44,477 bases of DNA from assembly GCA_903892635.1 (NCBI GenBank), contig CAITJH010000044.1, positions 130,108 to 174,584 on the forward strand. The letters run 5' to 3'. Shown here one piece after another: positions 3,126 through 13,652 of this stretch. The translations under genes and the position numbers were made by a program. Each line of letters opens with the position of its first letter. The first letter of the stretch is position 1. This DNA is from an uncultured Actinomycetes bacterium. Lineage in GTDB: Bacteria > Actinomycetota > Actinomycetes > S36-B12 > UBA5976. Under the pieces are notes generated by a model that searched no databases, had not been told where the DNA came from, and saw only the letters and a program-made list of their open reading frames with translations.

Positions 3126-5627
3126 CTATTCAGCAGTTTCCGCAGTCTCGACTGGAACGTCAGGGATCTCTCCCTTAAATTCGCCGCGGAACGTGAATGC
3201 TGCATCGGCGCCTTCACCATTAACATCAACGATGACAATCTCGCCTGGCTTGAGATCTCCATAAAGCATCTTTTCGCTCAATGGATCTTCAATTTCGCGC
3301 TGAATTGTTCGACGAAGTGGTCGAGCACCCAACACTGGATCGTAGCCACGAGTTGCAAGCAAAGCCTTTGCTGCAGGAGTTAGCTCGATAGCCATGTCTT
3401 TGTCGCGCAGACGTGAATCCAACTTGTCGACCATCAGATCAACAATCTGAACGATTTCATCTTGACTGAGTTGGTGGAAGACAACGATGTCGTCGATTCG
3501 ATTGAGGAACTCAGGACGGAAGTGTGTTTTGAGTTCATCATTTACTTTGCTCTTCATACGTTCGTATGACGACTGTGTGTCGTTGGCATCAGCGAATCCA
3601 AGGCTCACGCTCTTAGCAATGTCTCGCGTTCCAAGGTTCGTTGTCATGATGACAACTGTGTTCTTGAAGTCAACTACACGACCTTGAGCATCGGTTAAAC
3701 GACCATCTTCGAGTACCTGTAGAAGCGAATTGAAGATGTCTGGGTGAGCCTTTTCAATTTCATCAAAGAGCACAACACTGAATGGCTTGCGTCGCACCTT
3801 TTCAGTGAGCTGGCCACCTTCTTCGTAGCCTACGAATCCTGGAGGCGAACCGAAGAGACGCGACACAGTGTGCTTTTCCGAATACTCCGACATGTCGAGT
3901 GAAATCAACGAATCTTCATCGCCAAATAAGAATTCGGCAAGCGTCTTTGACAACTCAGTCTTACCCACGCCAGATGGTCCAGCAAAGATAAACGAGCCAC
4001 CTGGGCGTTTTGGATCCTTGAGCCCCGCGCGAGTACGACGGATTGCCTGGGACAACGCCTTGATCGCTTGTTCTTGTCCGATGACTCGACGGTGGAGTTC
4101 ATCCTCCATCTTGAGCAAACGCTGTGACTCTTCTTCGGTCAACTTAAAGACTGGAATTCCAGTAGTTGCGGCAAGAACTTCTGCAATGGTTTCTTCATCG
4201 ACCTGCGCAACGACGTCTAAGTCGCCGTCTTTCCATTCTTTTTCACGCTCGGCGCGAGAAGCAATCAGATTCTTTTCATCATCACGAAGCGAAGCTGCAA
4301 GTTCAAAATCTTGTGAATCAATTGCCGATTCCTTAGCCTTACGGACATCTGCAATCTTGGTATCAAATTCACGTAAATCTGGTGGAGCAGTCATACGTTG
4401 AATTCGAAGGCGCGCTCCAGCCTCATCAATGAGGTCAATTGCCTTGTCTGGCAAGAAACGATCATTGATATAGCGATCTGCCATCGTGGCTGCGGCAACA
4501 ATTGCGGCATCCGTGATGGTGACCTTGTGATGGTTTTCGTACCGGTCGCGCAAACCCTTCAGAATTTCAATAGCGTGAGCCAAAGTTGGTTCGCTAACCT
4601 GAATCGGCTGGAAACGACGCTCGAGCGCTGCATCTTTTTCGATGTACTTTCGGTACTCGTCAAGTGTTGTTGCGCCGATCGTTTGAAGTTCACCGCGAGC
4701 CAGCATCGGCTTGAGCATGCTCGCTGCATCAATTGCGCCTTCGGCTGCACCTGCACCAACAAGTGTGTGAATTTCATCAATGAAAATAATGACATCTCCG
4801 CGCTGCTTAATTTCCTTGAGAACCTTCTTCAATCGCTCTTCAAAGTCACCGCGGTAACGCGAACCCGCTACGAGCGCACCAAGGTCAAGTGAGTAGATCT
4901 GCTTGTCACGCAAAGTTTCAGGGACATCGCCTTTAACAATTTTTTGTGCAAGTCCTTCAATGATCGCGCTCTTTCCAACGCCGGGCTCACCAATAAGGAC
5001 CGGGTTGTTCTTTGTTCGACGCGAGAGAACTTGCATAACGCGTTCCATCTCTTGCGTGCGACCAATAACAGGATCTAGTTGGCCCTCACGTGCAGCTTGC
5101 GTCAAGTTACGACCAAACTGATCAAGAACAAGTGACGTTGAAGGAGTTCCTTCAGATGCACCAGAGCCTGCAGTTTGCGGTTCTTTACCTTGGTACCCAG
5201 AAAGCAACTGAATGACTTGTTGACGAACTCGATTAAGGTCAGCACCAAGTTTTACCAGTACCTGTGCTGCAACCCCTTCACCTTCACGGATGAGGCCAAG
5301 AAGAATGTGCTCGGTACCGATGTAATTGTGGCCAAGTTGGAGAGCTTCGCGAAGTGACAACTCGAGAACCTTCTTGGCACGAGGTGTGAATGGGATGTGT
5401 CCACTCGGAGCCTGTTGGCCCTGCCCGATAATTTCTTCGACCTGAGCACGAACCGCCTCAAGAGAGATGTCCATGCTTTCGAGCGCCTTTGCGGCAACGC
5501 CTTCACCTTCGTGAATCAGGCCGAGCAGGATGTGTTCTGTGCCGATGTAGTTGTGATTGAGCATGCGGGCTTCTTCTTGTGCCAACACAACAACTCGTCG
5601 GGCTCGATCTGTAAACCGCTCGAACAT
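3126..5627 (-). CDS. clpC: ATP-dependent Clp protease ATPase subunit ClpC
   Basis: AAA+ unfoldase that feeds substrates to ClpP in the cytoplasm. Two Clp-N repeats (about residues 1-145, each with [11 protein letters not shown]) precede NBD1, whose Walker A is GEPGVGKS at 213-220. A mid-domain with a UVR-like stretch (near 425-460, [16 protein letters not shown]) separates it from NBD2 (Walker A GPSGVGKT near 550). A C-terminal D2 small domain ends in an acidic tail. Length (833) is typical of ClpC. The ATG is preceded by a strong GGTGAGGAG site. It is divergent from the kinase-like gene at 5847; a 31-nt dyad lies directly upstream. Confidence 0.97.
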
Positions 5628-5675: not shown

Positions 5676-5846
5676 TCTTGCACCAATGGTAGACGTGCTT
5701 GCTGTCAGGCGCGTCATGCTTTTAGATACAACCCACTTCAGGGTGGCCATGTTCCCTGAAATTACTCACTTGTCTGAGTTCGTGTACGCCACGGGCGAAC
5801 AGGGATCACTCGTAGTATCGAGTAAGGAAACACAATTTCGATTGGC

Positions 5847-7580
5847 TTGGGGGCGGGGATGCCAGGAACTATTACGAACTCGTTTCTGAATGCCACTTGG
5901 CGCGATCGACTCGGTGGACGGTGGGCTATTTCGCTACCGCCTTATGTATGGTCAACGCCATTCATTGTTGGCCTGATTCCGTTAGCTAGTAGTGAGAAAT
6001 TCGAAGACTCCGCCACTTTGCTCAGGCTTACAGTTGTTTCGGCAATCGCTTGGATTGCATTTGGGCTTGTTCTTTACATCGGGCATCGAACCTTCTTTAG
6101 AAATCGTGCAACGAAACCTGTGTCCCCTATCGCAACGGCAATTCTTGGGATGATTGCAGGCTTCACTCAGAGCCTGATACACGGAGACTGGTTTCCAGCC
6201 TTCGGACTTAAGGGTTCGTACAGCCTGTCTCTGGTAACGAACGCAACAATCGGCTCGGCAGTGTGGATTCTTGCTACAGCAAACTTTATGTATTTTCGGC
6301 ATACCTTTAAGGCACTTCGTGATGCTCTACTTAAGCAACAGTCAAATTTGCTAGCTGAAAGTGATGAGTGGCTCAAACAAGTTCGACTTCATCGCGAAGA
6401 CTTAGCGCAATCAGTACGTATTCAACTCGTTCAGGAATGGGAACAAGCGCGCGAGCAGATTAGAAAGCAACTTGAACAGAAGTCGCAAAACTGGCGCGAA
6501 GCATTGTCTGATTTTTCGCTTCGTAGTCAAGAGACCGCTTTGTCACTTACGCAATCGTTCGAAACGCCTACCTCAAAACGAACTTCGCTAACCGATGCTT
6601 TGAGCTTGGTTTCAAGTATTCCGTTGATCCGAATTCGCGGCACAATCATGATGTTCCTGCTTCTAGCGACATTGCCACTCTTGCGCCTTGTCGGCGCTGT
6701 TGCTGCGGCACTAGTCCTCACTTCAATCTCCATTGCTTTGGGACTGTCCGTAATTATCGGTCGCCTTCTCATCAGAAAATTTCCAGATCAAGCGCGCTTA
6801 ATTTATGTTGCACTGATCATCACAGTTGCCGTTATCCCGCTAATTTCAATTTCGATTCACGTATCAAGCGCCATCGGAAACTCTGCAAGTATCGGCCTCG
6901 CCTTACTCGGTGGAACTGTAATGGCCGCGTCTTTTATCAGTTTTAACTTCACTGCGTTGCGAACTCGCCTGCGAGAAGATGAGATTCGACGACTACAGAG
7001 TGAAAACATTCTGTTGAGTGCACTTGAAGATCGACGACACCAAGTAGACGTTGAAACTCGCGTAGATTTTGCTGGACATTTAAATGCCACGGTGCAAAGT
7101 GCGATTAAATTAGCGACACGAGCCATAGATGACGGATTTACTAGCGGCAATATCGAAGCCGTTAATAGTGGACTGGCTGTCCTTGATGCTGTCTACTCCA
7201 ACATCTTGGGTCAGTATTCCGCTGACGAAGTCATTGATTTACATGCGCAAATTTCAGATGTTGTAAAACTATGGTCTGATCAAGCAATTATTACGTGGTC
7301 ATTGTCGATGGACGATTTAGATCACGAAGTAACGCGTCGCGTACTTCTCCTTATTAAACATTCACTTTCGCAACTTGTTGCCAACAATCTTGCTGGCCGA
7401 ATTCACGTCGACATCAGTTCGAAGGAAAATCAAGCTCACATTGTTATTGACTCAAACGCGAACCAATCATGGATCGAGAATGATCAACTGACTCGTGAAG
7501 TAATTGACGCTACGACCAGTTCGCAATGGAAGGTCGAACGCATTGACATGGGTTCGCGTCTTATCGCGACAGTTGGCTAA
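5847..7580 (+). CDS. Eight-TM coiled-coil protein with degenerate histidine-kinase C-terminus
   Basis: 577 residues. There are about four N-terminal membrane segments (33-48, 58-84, 93-111, 125-150) and a long charged coiled coil (155-235). A second membrane block follows (266-308, 316-339, 348-368), then a cytoplasmic region from 370. That region aligns with HisKA_3/HATPase sensor kinases: the R-IA--LHD-VQ motif is R405-VDFAGHLNATVQ417, so the phosphoacceptor position is Asn413 and the following Asp is Ala414. The N-box position is SLSQ (506-509) instead of a LTN-type Asn, and no DxGxG follows. It is therefore probably a catalytically dead receptor-like pseudokinase. The start is uncertain: TTG at 5847 or ATG at 5859. 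No response regulator gene is adjacent; clpC is divergent. Confidence 0.65.
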   Translation: MGAGMPGTITNSFLNATWRDRLGGRWAISLPPYVWSTPFIVGLIPLASSEKFEDSATLLRLTVVSAIAWIAFGLVLYIGHRTFFRNRATKPVSPIATAILGMIAGFTQSLIHGDWFPAFGLKGSYSLSLVTNATIGSAVWILATANFMYFRHTFKALRDALLKQQSNLLAESDEWLKQVRLHREDLAQSVRIQLVQEWEQAREQIRKQLEQKSQNWREALSDFSLRSQETALSLTQSFETPTSKRTSLTDALSLVSSIPLIRIRGTIMMFLLLATLPLLRLVGAVAAALVLTSISIALGLSVIIGRLLIRKFPDQARLIYVALIITVAVIPLISISIHVSSAIGNSASIGLALLGGTVMAASFISFNFTALRTRLREDEIRRLQSENILLSALEDRRHQVDVETRVDFAGHLNATVQSAIKLATRAIDDGFTSGNIEAVNSGLAVLDAVYSNILGQYSADEVIDLHAQISDVVKLWSDQAIITWSLSMDDLDHEVTRRVLLLIKHSLSQLVANNLAGRIHVDISSKENQAHIVIDSNANQSWIENDQLTREVIDATTSSQWKVERIDMGSRLIATVG

Positions 7581-7591
7581 TTACTTACTGG

Positions 7592-8602
7592 TTAATTCAG
7601 ACCAGAGTATGAGTGCAAGCCACTCACAAACATGTTTACGATGAAGTAGTTAAACATGATTGCCGCGAATCCAGCAATTGCAACAAATGCTGCCTTACGT
7701 CCGCGCCATCCGACAGTTGCACGGGCATGAAGATATGCCGCGTAAATTACCCACGTGATGAACGCCCAGGTTTCCTTTGGATCCCAACCCCAATAGCGAC
7801 CCCAAGCAGCTTCTGCCCAGATGGAACCCGCAATTACAGCGAAGGTCCACAGCGGAAACATGAATGCGTGAATTCGATATGCCATCAAATCAAGACGATC
7901 AGACGACGGAAGTCGCTGCGCTAATGGACCAAGTCGACCCGGTGCTTCACCATTGGCAATGTTGCTTTCAACGCGTTCAGCTACTAGGTACAGCACAGAA
8001 AGTGCGGCACCTATTGCGAACGAGCCAAGACATACCATTGCTGCTGTCACGTGGATGGCTAGCCAATAGGAATTTAGTGCTGGAACAAGTTGTGCACTTT
8101 CTGTGTACAAAACAGTGATCGCTAATCCAAGGTCCAATAGGACTGGCATCACAATGAACATGCCCAACCAGCGAAGGTCACGCTTAAGCGACATCACACA
8201 ATAGGCAATCAGTACGCCAAATCCCGCAGCGATAGAAAATTCGTACATGTTGCCCCATGGCAAACGGTGCGCAGAAAGGCCGCGAAAAATAATCGCTGCT
8301 CCAGTGAAGATGGCACTGAGCCACGTGAGAGACATGCCGATGTTTCCAGCACGTCGACCTTCGCCACGTCCGTCTTCAGTCACAATCGCTGTCGATACAG
8401 CAGGTCGATCTAGAGTTGCAGTCGAACCCATGCGCACTTGATGCGAAGCACTTGTTGCACGTTCTGCCGACTCTTCAAGTGTCTCAATACGACGACCCTT
8501 TGCCAACGAGATAGCAAATGCGCCCATTGCGCCAGTCAATGTTGTCATCGCGCCATAGACCATGATGTTGCTTGCTTGAGCTAGTGATTCATTAATCGCC
8601 AT
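7592..8602 (-). CDS. ccsB: Cytochrome c biogenesis protein CcsB (haem handling, system II)
   Basis: Polytopic membrane protein that, with ResB, delivers haem to apocytochrome c outside the membrane. It carries the tryptophan-rich haem-binding signature WGRYWGWDPKETWAFITW near its C-terminus, with conserved histidines in flanking TM segments. I start it at ATG 8602 (336 residues), because GAGG sits six bases upstream; a longer in-frame opening has no such site. It overlaps the resB 3' end by 11 bases and is the last gene of the tlpA-ccdA-resB-ccsB run. It converges on the kinase-like gene 11 bases away. Confidence 0.93.
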   Translation of the reverse strand: MAINESLAQASNIMVYGAMTTLTGAMGAFAISLAKGRRIETLEESAERATSASHQVRMGSTATLDRPAVSTAIVTEDGRGEGRRAGNIGMSLTWLSAIFTGAAIIFRGLSAHRLPWGNMYEFSIAAGFGVLIAYCVMSLKRDLRWLGMFIVMPVLLDLGLAITVLYTESAQLVPALNSYWLAIHVTAAMVCLGSFAIGAALSVLYLVAERVESNIANGEAPGRLGPLAQRLPSSDRLDLMAYRIHAFMFPLWTFAVIAGSIWAEAAWGRYWGWDPKETWAFITWVIYAAYLHARATVGWRGRKAAFVAIAGFAAIMFNYFIVNMFVSGLHSYSGLN

Positions 8603-10106
8603 GAAGAACCTCGGGTGCGTAGGTACGTGCAGTTCGGGCAAGTTCAGAAATTTCTGTAACTAACCCTGGGGTTTCAGTCTTTGACAAACCTGCTACCTCA
8701 ACAAGAGTAGCCCCATTTGTCGAAGTTGTAATTCTCAACCAAGCCCGTCGACGAGGAACTAACAGCGAAAGTGACAATCCAACAATCGCAAACATTCCAG
8801 CACCAAGCGCCCAGCCTTTTCCAGGGTCATGAGTGATCGAAAAGGATGCCCATTCCTTGTACCCATCGAATGTGACTGATCCTTGACCCTTTGGTAATTG
8901 ATAAGTTTCACCGGGCTTTAACTTTTCCAATCCCACTTTTGTCATTCTCGTCGTATCAAGACGATAGACACTTTGCGGTGTTCCCGAATCGAGACCGAGA
9001 TCACCTGTCCACACACTCATAAAGACCATGGGATCCATCGGTGCGGGATAAGTGGAATGAGGTCCTTGCGTCATGTCGACCGCAGCCGTTGGCAAGAAGA
9101 ATGCTTGAATACCAATTTGAGGAACTGAATCTGGCGCCTTAACAACACCAGTGGATGTGAAGTTTCCATCCTGCGGCAAGAAAATTGCGGAATCTTTCCA
9201 GACAACTTGTCCCAGTGCATTCTTAACAGTGAATTCCGGCGCATAACCATGTCCAACGAGATAGACAGACGACCCTTCGATCCGAAGCGGTTTATTCACT
9301 TCGATACGCACATTGCGAGCTTCGCTAGCGGGAGCATTTTTTACAGCAACATCCGCATAAAACTCGCGCGGTGCACCATTTTGCATTCCACCTAGTTGAT
9401 AGGTCGCAAAAAATTTCTTTAACTGAAATGAGAATGGAGCCATCGTGCTGGTGTTAAAAGCTCGTCCCGGTGTGAAGGTGTCGTACTGCGTAATGTTGTT
9501 CGCAAAGCCCGAACCTTCGCGCACCAATACTGTGCCTTTTGTTCCAAGTGCGCTACCTGAACCAATCGCAAGAAGAACCAATAGCAGGGCAAGGTGGAAG
9601 AGTAGATTTCCAGTCTCGCGCGCATAGCCACGTTCGGCAGCAACCCACGATTCTCCAGTGCGAACGCGCCAACCTCTTTGCGACCATGCCTTTGCTACCC
9701 CATCGATAGCACCATCGACATTGTTGCTTGTCCACGATTCGTGAGCTGGGAGTCGACCAAGATTGCGTGGAGCAACTGGCGGCTGACTTCGAAGTTCTTT
9801 CCAATGAATCAATGTTCGAGGAAGTACGCATCCCGTCAGCGAGATGAAAAGCAAAATGTAAATTGCAGCGAACCATGGTGATGCAAAGACATCAAACATG
9901 TGAAAGCGATCCAAGAGTGGCCCGGACTTGGGGTGATCTCTTAAATATTGGGTGACCTTAAGCGGTGACGTACCTCGCTGTGGGAACAATGAACCCGGAA
10001 CGCTGGCAATCGCCAACAAGAAAAGTAGGAACAATGCAGTTCGCATGCTTGTGAGAGAACGCCACATCCAACGTGCATACGCCACGATTTGTTTCATGAC
10101 ACTCAT
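8592..10106 (-). CDS. resB: Cytochrome c biogenesis protein ResB
   Basis: Membrane partner of CcsB in the system II haem lyase. Three N-terminal-half TM segments are visible (near residues 20-40, 75-95 and 160-185), followed by a large extracytoplasmic domain and a last TM around 435-460. The N-terminal TM1 motif ALFLLFLLAIASVPGSLFPQ is family-typical. The chosen ATG at 10106 forms a TAATG overlap with the ccdA stop; an in-frame start 30 bases upstream would bury 30 bases in ccdA. Length is 504 residues. Confidence 0.93.
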   Translation of the reverse strand: MSVMKQIVAYARWMWRSLTSMRTALFLLFLLAIASVPGSLFPQRGTSPLKVTQYLRDHPKSGPLLDRFHMFDVFASPWFAAIYILLFISLTGCVLPRTLIHWKELRSQPPVAPRNLGRLPAHESWTSNNVDGAIDGVAKAWSQRGWRVRTGESWVAAERGYARETGNLLFHLALLLVLLAIGSGSALGTKGTVLVREGSGFANNITQYDTFTPGRAFNTSTMAPFSFQLKKFFATYQLGGMQNGAPREFYADVAVKNAPASEARNVRIEVNKPLRIEGSSVYLVGHGYAPEFTVKNALGQVVWKDSAIFLPQDGNFTSTGVVKAPDSVPQIGIQAFFLPTAAVDMTQGPHSTYPAPMDPMVFMSVWTGDLGLDSGTPQSVYRLDTTRMTKVGLEKLKPGETYQLPKGQGSVTFDGYKEWASFSITHDPGKGWALGAGMFAIVGLSLSLLVPRRRAWLRITTSTNGATLVEVAGLSKTETPGLVTEISELARTARTYAPEVLHGD

Positions 10107-10861
10107 TACAGCGGTACCGCCCACTGTGGTGCCCAATCACGCAAGGTAACCATCAATTCATTCCAATACCCAGTGACTTGCATGAGGCCAATGGCAATAA
10201 GGAGAAGTCCTCCGAATTGCATGATCAAGCGTGAGTGTCGTCTCAGTGCCCCGACTGCACGAACGCTTCGCTCTAACATCATGCCTAACAAGATGAACGG
10301 TACGCCTAGTCCAAGGACATACACAAAACTAAGTAGCGCTCCTCGCGCAGCACTAGCTTCAGTCAACGCCATGCTCTGGACCGCGGCAAGTGCTGGACCG
10401 ATACATGGTGTCCAACCAATGGCAAAAAGCAGTCCAAGAACAAACGCGCCAACGAGATTTCCGGTGGGCATTCGATGCATTCGAAACTCACGTTGAAGTG
10501 CCGGAATTAACCCAAGAAAACCAAGTCCCAGAATGATGACAATAATTCCCATCACCATTTGAATGATGCGCTGATGCTCAATGAGTCTTTGCCCTAATCC
10601 GCCGAATAGCGCACCGAATGAGACAAAGACCACCGCAACACCGGTCATGAATGCCAGTGCACCAATCACAGCTCGGCTACGAGTTGGAGTGCGACCTGTT
10701 GCTTGTGCTCCGGCAACTCCAGTCATGTAAGACAGGTACCCCGGAACTAAAGGCAAGACGCACGGAGATAAAAAAGACACAACGCCAGCAAGAGCAGCGA
10801 GCGGAATAGCAATAAGCATCGACCCACTGGTCAACGTTTGGGCAACTCCTGCTGCGACCAC
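10106..10861 (-). CDS. ccdA: Thiol:disulfide interchange membrane protein CcdA
   Basis: Six-TM DsbD-like protein that passes electrons from cytoplasmic thioredoxin to the extracytoplasmic TlpA/ResA-type reductant. The first TM pair carries the catalytic Cys in SFLSPCVLPLVPGYLS, and the paired Cys sits in GWTPCIGPALAAV. The GTG start overlaps the tlpA stop (TAGTG) and its own stop overlaps resB, so the four cytochrome c genes form one coupled operon. Confidence 0.94.
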   Translation of the reverse strand: MVAAGVAQTLTSGSMLIAIPLAALAGVVSFLSPCVLPLVPGYLSYMTGVAGAQATGRTPTRSRAVIGALAFMTGVAVVFVSFGALFGGLGQRLIEHQRIIQMVMGIIVIILGLGFLGLIPALQREFRMHRMPTGNLVGAFVLGLLFAIGWTPCIGPALAAVQSMALTEASAARGALLSFVYVLGLGVPFILLGMMLERSVRAVGALRRHSRLIMQFGGLLLIAIGLMQVTGYWNELMVTLRDWAPQWAVPL

Positions 10862-11430
10862 TATTTTTCCTCGACTACAGCGAGTGACACATCACGCAGT
10901 TGTGCCTCTGTTACTGGGCCAAGAATGCGCGCTGCTACACGTCCCTTGCGATCGAGAATTATGGTCGACGGTGTAGCTGCTGGTCCAAGATTGCCAAAGG
11001 CGAGCGTGAGTACTCCATCGTTGTCTTGAATCGACGGATAGCCAGTTGGAAAGCGGTCTTGAAATGCCTTGGCTGCAGCAAGACCATCACGAGTATTGAG
11101 ACCGAGAAAATGGACACCTTGCTTGGAAAGCTCTTTATTCACTTTTTCGAGCGTGACGGCTTCACTTCGACATGGGCCACACCAACTTGCCCACAGGTTT
11201 ACCGCAACAATATCTCCGCGCCATTGTGAAATGTCCAGCGGTGACCCTTCGAGTGTTGTTCCCGCAAGCTCAATTGGCGCCCCGCGCTTGTCCGCAGCGA
11301 CCAAAATCGTGCTGCCATCTCCAGCAACATAACTTGTGTCACCTGTGCCCTTAGTTGACGTATTTGAACAAGCCGAAAGCATTCCAGTAGCAAGGACTGC
11401 TACCCAAAGAATTACTAATGACTTACGCAC
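10861..11430 (-). CDS. TlpA/ResA-like thioredoxin lipoprotein
   Basis: Membrane-tethered thioredoxin-fold reductase, expected to keep apocytochrome c CXXCH thiols reduced for haem attachment. The N-terminus is a lipoprotein signal ending in the lipobox LSAC, and the active site is WASWCGPCRSEAV. I choose GTG at 11430, preceded by AAGGT and giving the compact signal MRKSLVILWVAVLATG. A TTG 24 bases earlier is open but gives a poorer signal sequence. It overlaps the phosphatase gene by 8 bases and ccdA by one. ResA is the expected equivalent, but the name is not certain from sequence. Confidence 0.88.
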   Translation of the reverse strand: MRKSLVILWVAVLATGMLSACSNTSTKGTGDTSYVAGDGSTILVAADKRGAPIELAGTTLEGSPLDISQWRGDIVAVNLWASWCGPCRSEAVTLEKVNKELSKQGVHFLGLNTRDGLAAAKAFQDRFPTGYPSIQDNDGVLTLAFGNLGPAATPSTIILDRKGRVAARILGPVTEAQLRDVSLAVVEEK

Positions 11431-12061
11431 CGGCGACCTTACTTGCTTGCGCAATTAAATCGGCAGAGGGTTCTGTGTAAATAATTGCTGTTAATTCGTC
11501 TTCATCAAATGTAAGTGACGTTAGTGAAGCAAGGCTGCATTGACGTCGACGCGGATCGTGTGCAAATCGTCGGCCTTCGAAATCCAAACGGCTTATCCAA
11601 ATAGGAAGTTGATGGCTAACGAGCACGGCCTCATGACCATAAGCCTGTTCTCGAGCACTCTCAACTGCACGACGCATGCGTTCTGCAAGAAGTTTGTACG
11701 GCTCGCCCCATGATGGCTTCAATGGATTGTAAAGATGCTTCCATGCGCTCGGTTCGCGTAAGACTCCATCACCGACGGCAACTCGCTTACCTTCAAAAAC
11801 ATTGTCAGCTTCGATCAAGTCCACGTTTGTGGTTATCGGGAGATTGAACTTTGCTGCAATTGGCATAGCAGTTTGCTGAGCGCGTTCTAGTGGTGATGCA
11901 ACAACCAGCGTTACATCACGATTCGCAAGTGCATCTGCGGCTCGCACCGCCATAGTCTGACCTAATTCTGAGAGTTGAAATCCTGGAATTCGTCCGTACA
12001 AAATCTTGTCAGGGTTATGCACTTCACCATGTCGCAACAAGTGGACGATAGTGCGAGCCAT
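11423..12061 (-). CDS. Histidine phosphatase superfamily protein
   Basis: About 212-residue phosphoglycerate-mutase-like phosphatase. The core motif is HLLRHGEVHNPDKILYGRIPG. The second catalytic-histidine block reads AVLVSHQLPIWI, with SPLERAQQTA between. The substrate is unknown. In actinobacteria this gene typically lies between hemL and tlpA. Here it follows hemD by 7 bases, because hemB and hemL are absent. Start ATG 12061 is chosen over an earlier opening that would run back into hemD. Confidence 0.85.
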   Translation of the reverse strand: MARTIVHLLRHGEVHNPDKILYGRIPGFQLSELGQTMAVRAADALANRDVTLVVASPLERAQQTAMPIAAKFNLPITTNVDLIEADNVFEGKRVAVGDGVLREPSAWKHLYNPLKPSWGEPYKLLAERMRRAVESAREQAYGHEAVLVSHQLPIWISRLDFEGRRFAHDPRRRQCSLASLTSLTFDEDELTAIIYTEPSADLIAQASKVAGA

Positions 12062-12068
12062 GTCGACC

Positions 12069-13652
12069 TCAGGTTGCGCGACGGCGAGCAGCCGAGCGCT
12101 TGCGTGATGGTCGCCAACCGACAGATCCTGCAGCAGCAGCTTGATCACGCAATGCGACGCCGTGCGCTGCTAGTGCATGAGCGAGTGCATCAATTTCAGC
12201 TGACTCAGGAAGGACATCGACTCGCAATCCATGTTCTTGAGCAGTCTTGGCCGTCGCTGCACCAATGCAAGCAATGATGCTTGATGGGTGAGGCTTCCCT
12301 GCGATACCAACCAAGTTACGAACGGTGCTGCTGCTTGTGAAGATCACAGCGTCAAAGCCGCCAGTCTTAATCGCTTCACGTGTACTTGCAGGTGGTGGTG
12401 TTGCTCGAACAGTTCGGTACGCAGTGACGTCTTCAACTTCCCAACCAAGTTCGGTTAGTCCCGCAACAAGTGTGTCGGTTGCAATGTCAGCACGCGGTAA
12501 GAAGATGCGATTGATTGGATCGAGGATCTGATCAAACTCTGGCCATTCTTCCAACAGTGACGCAGTTGTTTGTTCGCCTACTGGCACGAGATCTGGGCGA
12601 ACGCCCATCGCGATTAGTGCCTCGACAGTGTCTTGCCCGATCGCTGCTACTCGAATGCCTGAGAGTGATCGTGCATCTAGCCCGCTCTCGTCAAAACGCT
12701 CACGAATTGCGCGCACTGCGTTGAGGCTTGTGAAAACAACCCATTCGAATCGACCAGAAACCAGTCCGTGAATTGCGCGCTCCATTTGCTGTGGAGTACG
12801 AGGTGGTTCAACACTCATTGTTGGAACTTCGAATGGTACGGCTCCGAATGAAATGAGCATGTCTTGCAAATCTTCAGTTGAATCCTTGGTCTTTGGAACA
12901 AGCACACGCCAGCCATGTAACGGGCGAACTTCAAACCAAGGAGTGCGCTCGCCGGCAGTTTCACCGATGATGACAAGTCCTTGACCAGTGTGCTTTGCCA
13001 ACTTTGCAGCCCCTGGAAGTGCGTCGAGAGTTGTGTGCAATGAACGCTGCTCAACAGTTGCACCGTCACGAACGATAGCTACGGGAGTCTTTGGATCGCG
13101 ACCAGCTTTGATGAGTGCCTTAGTAATTTCTGCGGCACGATCGGCAGCATTTTGAATTACCAACGTGACATCAGCGTCGATGTAGTTTGACCATTCAATC
13201 GCTGGCACGTCTGCATCAATAACGCGCACCTCACGAGTACGTCCACCTGTGAGGGAGATACCTGTGTGTGCTGCAGCTGCAGCCAAAGGTGTTACACCAG
13301 CAGCAACCTCAAAAGCTAGACCGGTCTTTGCAATGGCTTCGGTCTCAAGGGACAAACGACCATCGAGTACTGGGTCACCGGAAAGCAAGCGGGCAACAAC
13401 TTTGTCGTCTTTGCGGGCATCTGTAATGACCTTGTTGCGAGCGGCAAGTGACAGTGGTGCACCGTTGCTGTCGTTAGCTACCAATACCTCACCAGAGGCA
13501 ACCTGCATCGCTAACTCAACGACTTCGGCATCAGCAAGGACCACATCAGCGGTCTTTAATAATCGGTGCGCACGTACCGTAAGTAGATCGGGGTCTCCGG
13601 GACCTGCGATCACAAAGGACACTCCGACAGCTGCTGCTGGTCGAGAGATCAT
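12069..13652 (-). CDS. hemD: Uroporphyrinogen-III synthase fused to a CobA-like methyltransferase domain
   Basis: The N-terminal half (about residues 8-235) is a tetrapyrrole methylase fold, with FVIAGPGDPDLLT and AAGVTPLAAAAAHTGISLT. The usual GGDPFVFGRGGEE loop is replaced by SGDPVLDGRLSLE, a divergence common in actinobacterial fusions. The C-terminal half (about 245-500) is HemD, which closes hydroxymethylbilane to uroporphyrinogen III (GWRVLVP, FTSLNAVRAI, FTSSSTVRNL). A basic tail ends the 527 residues. AAGG-AGG purine runs precede the ATG. It follows rex by 26 bases, with hemA and hemC missing. Methyltransferase activity is doubtful. Confidence 0.88.
   Translation of the reverse strand: MISRPAAAVGVSFVIAGPGDPDLLTVRAHRLLKTADVVLADAEVVELAMQVASGEVLVANDSNGAPLSLAARNKVITDARKDDKVVARLLSGDPVLDGRLSLETEAIAKTGLAFEVAAGVTPLAAAAAHTGISLTGGRTREVRVIDADVPAIEWSNYIDADVTLVIQNAADRAAEITKALIKAGRDPKTPVAIVRDGATVEQRSLHTTLDALPGAAKLAKHTGQGLVIIGETAGERTPWFEVRPLHGWRVLVPKTKDSTEDLQDMLISFGAVPFEVPTMSVEPPRTPQQMERAIHGLVSGRFEWVVFTSLNAVRAIRERFDESGLDARSLSGIRVAAIGQDTVEALIAMGVRPDLVPVGEQTTASLLEEWPEFDQILDPINRIFLPRADIATDTLVAGLTELGWEVEDVTAYRTVRATPPPASTREAIKTGGFDAVIFTSSSTVRNLVGIAGKPHPSSIIACIGAATAKTAQEHGLRVDVLPESAEIDALAHALAAHGVALRDQAAAAGSVGWRPSRKRSAARRRAT

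Follow-up and report, generated by a model that had tools for sequence, protein, structure and literature searches.

DivL modulates CckA, and RocA modulates CovS; to our knowledge, few pseudo-histidine kinases found in nature show signs of having been maintained over long periods, these two being the examples. RocA, an accessory protein of the Streptococcus pyogenes CovR/S system, binds CovS through its transmembrane (TM) part and homodimerizes through its cytoplasmic part (PMC6635533, PMC7028121), and the Caulobacter protein DivL provides a second pseudo-histidine kinase precedent (PMC4211667). Other forms of non-canonical action are represented by a ChrS variant of Corynebacterium glutamicum (PMC9491836) and by FasB/FasC (PMC12675982).

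Here we examine a gene from a freshwater actinobacterium, located in a 44,477-nucleotide stretch of DNA (contig CAITJH010000044.1; hereafter the window, meaning the whole stretch analysed), that encodes a membrane receptor derived from a sensor kinase, lies divergent to the protein-quality-control gene clpC, and whose product probably signals by protein contact, not by phosphorylation. Its likeness to RocA rests on kinase fold and architecture: both are orphan multi-TM proteins with DHp and CA-like parts, no regulator of their own, and lost CA residues. RocA differs in having six or seven TM helices in a single block, in keeping a dispensable His, in its phylum and in its partner, CovS; by analogy, it is nonetheless the nearest functional precedent. 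DivL likewise has its phosphoacceptor replaced across orthologues (by Tyr) and acts without kinase activity, but it carries PAS sensor domains, is alphaproteobacterial and binds DivK~P. The ChrS variant, too, is a pseudokinase derived from an actinobacterial sensor kinase, and a paralogue is its proposed route of action, although it arose by a laboratory frameshift in one strain, whereas the window case is a natural lineage. Because intact kinases and pseudokinases occur together in one genus, with a loss that can be dated, this family could reveal why a sensor kinase is retained without phosphorylation, and which parts still matter (the first TM block, DHp helix 2 and the CA shell).

Architecture and fold of the window protein

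The reading frame (Table 1) may begin at a TTG or at an in-frame ATG at 5859, the latter yielding 573 amino acids; orthologue starts lie 18 residues ahead of an R-x-RL motif, which makes the ATG the likelier start. Hydropathy analysis, with which an AlphaFold model agrees, indicates about four TM helices, a coil, about four further TM helices and a DHp/CA-like C-terminus made up of a helix pair and an alpha/beta domain, matching the two TM blocks around a long coiled coil described in an initial annotation of this DNA. By hydropathy, the charged helix between the blocks spans about residues 150-245 (31% charged). In the comparison of three orthologues, the first TM block is the best-conserved part (50 of 136 columns invariant, residues 15-150) and the second the least conserved (15 of 130), and the second helix of the pseudo-DHp (VNSGLAVxDAVYS) is strictly conserved. 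The N-terminal membrane part folded alone reached a pLDDT of 73, and a structure search of the PDB with it returned no match under E 1.

Table 1. Features of the pseudokinase locus (positions within the window).
Feature	Position	Strand	Basis
clpC, divergent neighbour	3126-5627	-	translation; conserved in 3/3 orthologous loci
ClgR-type operator TGTACGCCACGGGCGAAC, clpC/pseudokinase intergenic region	5783-5801		consensus match, both strands
Orphan pseudo-histidine kinase gene, 577 aa	5847-7580	+	ORF from TTG; full-length homologues in same genus
First TM block, residues 28-145, about four TM helices	5928-6281	+	hydropathy, AlphaFold helices
Long charged helix/coiled coil, residues 150-232	6294-6542	+	AlphaFold helices 127-211, 214-232
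Second TM block, residues 258-371, about four TM helices	6618-6959	+	hydropathy, AlphaFold
Pseudo-DHp, residues 376-470, two helices	6972-7256	+	AlphaFold helices 345-433, 436-458; hhalign; alignment
Asn413 at phosphoacceptor His position (Thr, Ile in two orthologues)	7083-7085	+	alignments, hhalign
Pseudo-CA, residues 471-577, HATPase_c-type fold without ATP motifs	7257-7577	+	AlphaFold, structure comparison
Gln509 at N-box Asn position (His in both orthologues)	7371-7373	+	alignments
SNANQ (536-540) in place of DNGxG	7452-7466	+	alignments, hhalign
resC/ccsA-type cytochrome c biogenesis gene, convergent neighbour	7592-8641	-	translation; conserved in 3/3 loci

Searches with the window protein alone returned only noise from Pfam and NCBIfam, with no HATPase_c or HisKA_3 match, and no match among PDB-chain sequences; in Pfam, HATPase_c matches 13 of 21 family members, with E values up to 0.1. 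When the C-termini of the three window-type proteins (the window protein and its two orthologues) were compared by hhalign with those of intact family members, the modules aligned at E 1.1e-11 (probability 97%), and the C-termini of a recA-linked sister group aligned at E 1.2e-7. The profile search suggested earlier therefore fails for the single protein in Pfam but succeeds as a profile-profile comparison with intact paralogues.

The AlphaFold model (pLDDT 69.9 on average and 73-88 over most of the CA region) was built on an alignment of 13 sequences with intact paralogues among them, whereas the window-type profile used in hhalign was free of these. It matches DesK in Foldseek (E 1.5e-5), and its CA part aligns with the CA domain of DosS with a Z of 14.4 and an rmsd of 2.0 over 107 residues (VIA-align); the modelled fold is of the DosS/DesK/VraS type, with the DivL structure 4q20 also among the structure matches, and DesK is likewise hit when PDB sequences are searched with the family profile (E 1e-8). 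The C-terminal DHp/HATPase module proposed by eye is thus recovered by hhalign, AlphaFold and structure comparison. The best structural matches of the CA part, HisKA_3 kinases of the DosS, DesK, VraS and NarX types, are active enzymes, however, whereas the window protein lacks every catalytic motif.

Catalytic positions and the kinase family

In hhalign, Asn413 pairs with the phosphoacceptor His, Gln509 with the N-box Asn and SNANQ with DNGxG, the same correspondence as in MAFFT alignments, so that the two substitutions located by eye in the initial annotation were placed exactly. The phosphoacceptor region reads N413-A-T-V-Q417, and across the three window-type proteins the His is replaced by N/T/I, the N-box Asn by Q/H/H and the G1 Asp, which binds adenine, by S/C/A; the G1 Gly is also lost, confirming that the DxGxG glycines are missing, though N537 of the G1 box is invariant. 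Conservation of residues 413, 414 and 509 had been proposed as a check: the loss is conserved, but the residues themselves are not (T/I, T/T and H/H in the orthologues), and neither orthologue keeps the His, the N-box Asn or the G1 Asp, contrary to what decay in one strain would predict. Ala414, reported as the loss of an Asp, is correctly positioned, but this family normally has Gly directly behind the His (LHG), so the Ala does not represent a family-specific loss. The usual residue there in HisKA_3 kinases is Asp or Glu; intact members such as L011 and L019, with adjacent regulators and their other motifs intact, carry Gly (LHG) or Asn.

All the hallmarks of an active histidine kinase (phosphoacceptor His, N-box Asn and G1 Asp) are therefore absent from the window protein, and a catalytically dead, kinase-like receptor is what the conserved loss of motifs on a kinase fold indicates at the level of sequence. 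A shifted phosphoacceptor was considered and rejected, as the pseudo-DHp contains no His conserved across the three orthologues, the only conserved one (H520) lying in the CA part. Residual ATP binding may persist despite the lost motifs, and an unconventional enzyme, acting solely as a phosphatase or binding ATP without the usual motifs, would accord with the retained N537 and CA fold, and with the DNG and LG box that the recA-linked sisters keep. Such an enzyme is nevertheless highly improbable, given that Q417, the possibly phosphatase-relevant +4 residue, is Asn and Arg in the orthologues, that the pseudo-DHp lacks a conserved His, and that the G1 Asp is gone in all three proteins.

The window protein belongs to a family of 4TM-coil-4TM sensor kinases from Nanopelagicales-type genomes, on which literature searches found no publication. 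Homology is full-length and includes both TM blocks, with E values of 1e-126 to 1e-140 for orthologues and down to 1e-32 for other groups, mostly in the same genus; identity to the two orthologues is 36-39%, whereas the adjoining resC is ~85% identical. MAFFT alignments show the His (LHG..Q) and N-box Asn in each of the 28 other proteins in the tree, mostly together with the G box; both residues are missing from the three window-type and seven recA-type proteins. These ten form one clade (support 100/99), recovered with SH-aLRT values of 99 from N-terminal columns alone and 83 from C-terminal columns, in a tree that includes long branches and whose root was not inferred. As the two groups are sisters, a single ancestral loss of His and N-box Asn is the simplest history, and the window protein almost certainly belongs to a pseudo-histidine kinase lineage.

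Intact members resemble DosS/DesK/VraS/NarX-type kinases in their DesK profile match and in their pairing with a NarL-type regulator (Response_reg + GerE), which nearly all have directly upstream; those without an adjacent regulator either sit at the end of a contig or belong to the most divergent branch. Shorter members of 372-408 amino acids (L114, at G015:C3:622500-642000, and L115) apparently lack the first TM block and keep the His and N-box Asn. An intact-type kinase gene of the family elsewhere in the window's genome, at G000:C23:22418-24750 (L098 4916-7264), is frameshifted, and its NarL-type regulator carries an in-frame stop, reflecting either decay or an assembly error.

Pseudokinases of the two groups together are patchily distributed (10 of 23 genomes of the genus), the groups never occurring together in one of these genomes. 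The protein might modulate its own intact, NarL-linked 4TM-coil-4TM paralogues, as a heterodimer partner or dominant negative: it shares their family and architecture, helix 2 of its pseudo-DHp is strictly conserved, its orthologues' genomes (G007, G022) hold intact paralogues, and paralogue heterodimers are known from ChrS/HrrS (PMC9491836) and FasB/FasC (PMC12675982). However, G001 and G016 (91-92% complete) carry a pseudokinase of the recA-linked group and no intact family member, so the gene persists on its own and obligate partnership with intact members is unlikely; the genome table reveals no strict pairing of pseudokinases with one intact paralogue type, and the nearest intact-type pair in the window's genome is damaged, although a more distant intact paralogue lies on C37. 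We consider modulation of these paralogues unlikely.

Maintenance and proposed mode of action

A decaying, functionless relic would explain why every catalytic motif is gone, why divergence is fast and why occurrence is patchy. Reading frames are nonetheless unbroken in all ten His-less genes, which still encode 567-577 amino acids despite deep divergence; whole-gene dN/dS in the recA-type group is low (0.06-0.12 for pairs with computable dS, and about 0.10 in intact kinases); and the proportion of columns invariant in the three window-type orthologues is 28% in the CA part, on par with the coil and pseudo-DHp (29% each). Saturated dS means that selection on the window-type group, a fast-evolving set from three MAG genomes, is seen only indirectly. 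A relic is thus decidedly unlikely, and the lineage is, on the evidence of its motifs and frames, a naturally evolved and maintained one, of the same general kind as the known pseudokinases.

We lean towards a non-enzymatic membrane modulator comparable to RocA and DivL, with a scaffold or allosteric role, of the kind raised in the initial annotation, suggested by analogy. The ancestor would have been a two-component sensor kinase (four TM helices, coil, four TM helices, DHp and CA; HisKA_3/DesK-DosS-like) that lost the His and N-box Asn a single time, before the clpC-linked and recA-linked groups diverged from one another, and the window's group would later have lost the ATP-binding G1 box as well; to judge from these motifs, autokinase activity has presumably been lost. 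The pseudo-DHp would probably mediate dimerization and the membrane part would probably do the sensing, with output by contact, either tipping a different sensor kinase between kinase and phosphatase activity or controlling another membrane protein, in the manner of RocA with CovS and DivL with CckA. Missing motifs, retained frames and a conserved pseudo-DHp helix 2 fit a protein that works by contact.

Gene neighbourhood and predicted operators

In all three genomes, the window-type gene lies between clpC and resC, facing clpC as first described, with 219 bp (TTG) or 231 bp (ATG) between the start codons of clpC and the pseudokinase. None of the ten His-less genes has a response regulator beside it, extending the observation made initially for the window; the nearest Response_reg in its genome, ~8 kb away, is part of another kinase gene pair. 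Orphan status and synteny, like the fold, the conserved motif losses and the intact frames, are read directly from the DNA and its translation. It had been asked whether the gene always neighbours clpC: this holds for the three orthologues but not for the sister group, whose two extensively read loci have recA (divergent) on one side and ald on the other, and whose other five share the same upstream palindrome; the lineage can therefore do without clpC beside it. The recA-linked intergenic regions (L005-L010, L012) carry a perfect LexA-type palindrome, CGAACACCTGTTCG, or one close to it, probably the ordinary recA SOS box, and contain no ClgR box.

An identical ClgR-type 18-mer is present in the intergenic region of all three window-type loci, the consensus being WNNWMGCYNNNRGCGWWS as quoted in PMC2905415. 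The pattern alone is unspecific (44 matches in the genome versus 31 for a reversed control), so only its conserved place upstream of clpC supports the box, and co-regulation of the pseudokinase with clpC through this shared predicted box is possible. Given also that clpC adjoins all three orthologues and that the window's genome has a gene for a ClgR-like HTH protein beside cinA, the pseudokinase might serve ClpC as membrane anchor, adaptor or stress sensor and be induced jointly with it by ClgR. Related boxes, however, occur upstream of clpC in members of the genus without the pseudokinase (G020, G002, G004, G008, G010), indicating that the box belongs to clpC; the sister group adjoins recA, and in G020, where the pseudokinase is missing, a small unrelated ORF separates clpC from the resC beside it. 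A dedicated ClpC partner is thus very unlikely. A further scenario, in which the lineage lost kinase chemistry once, dropped its regulator and settled twice by stress genes (recA and clpC), persisting there even where no intact family member is present, would make the protein an independent stress receptor that generates an output of its own non-enzymatically instead of assisting a paralogous kinase; we regard it as somewhat doubtful, and retain the RocA/DivL-like modulator as our preferred reading.

The small ORF in G020 (MPRFFLVFLAFGLFVYAFSDW..., L136 at about 2620-2880) resembles a membrane protein of the PLD-nuclease N-terminal type. In the other members of the genus that were read, clpC is not near resC. 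Also conserved in the genus is the interval 7592-13652 of the window, where a cytochrome c biogenesis cluster of the resC-resB-ccdA-tlpA type precedes a gene of the phosphoglycerate-mutase type and one for a fused uroporphyrinogen methylase/synthase.
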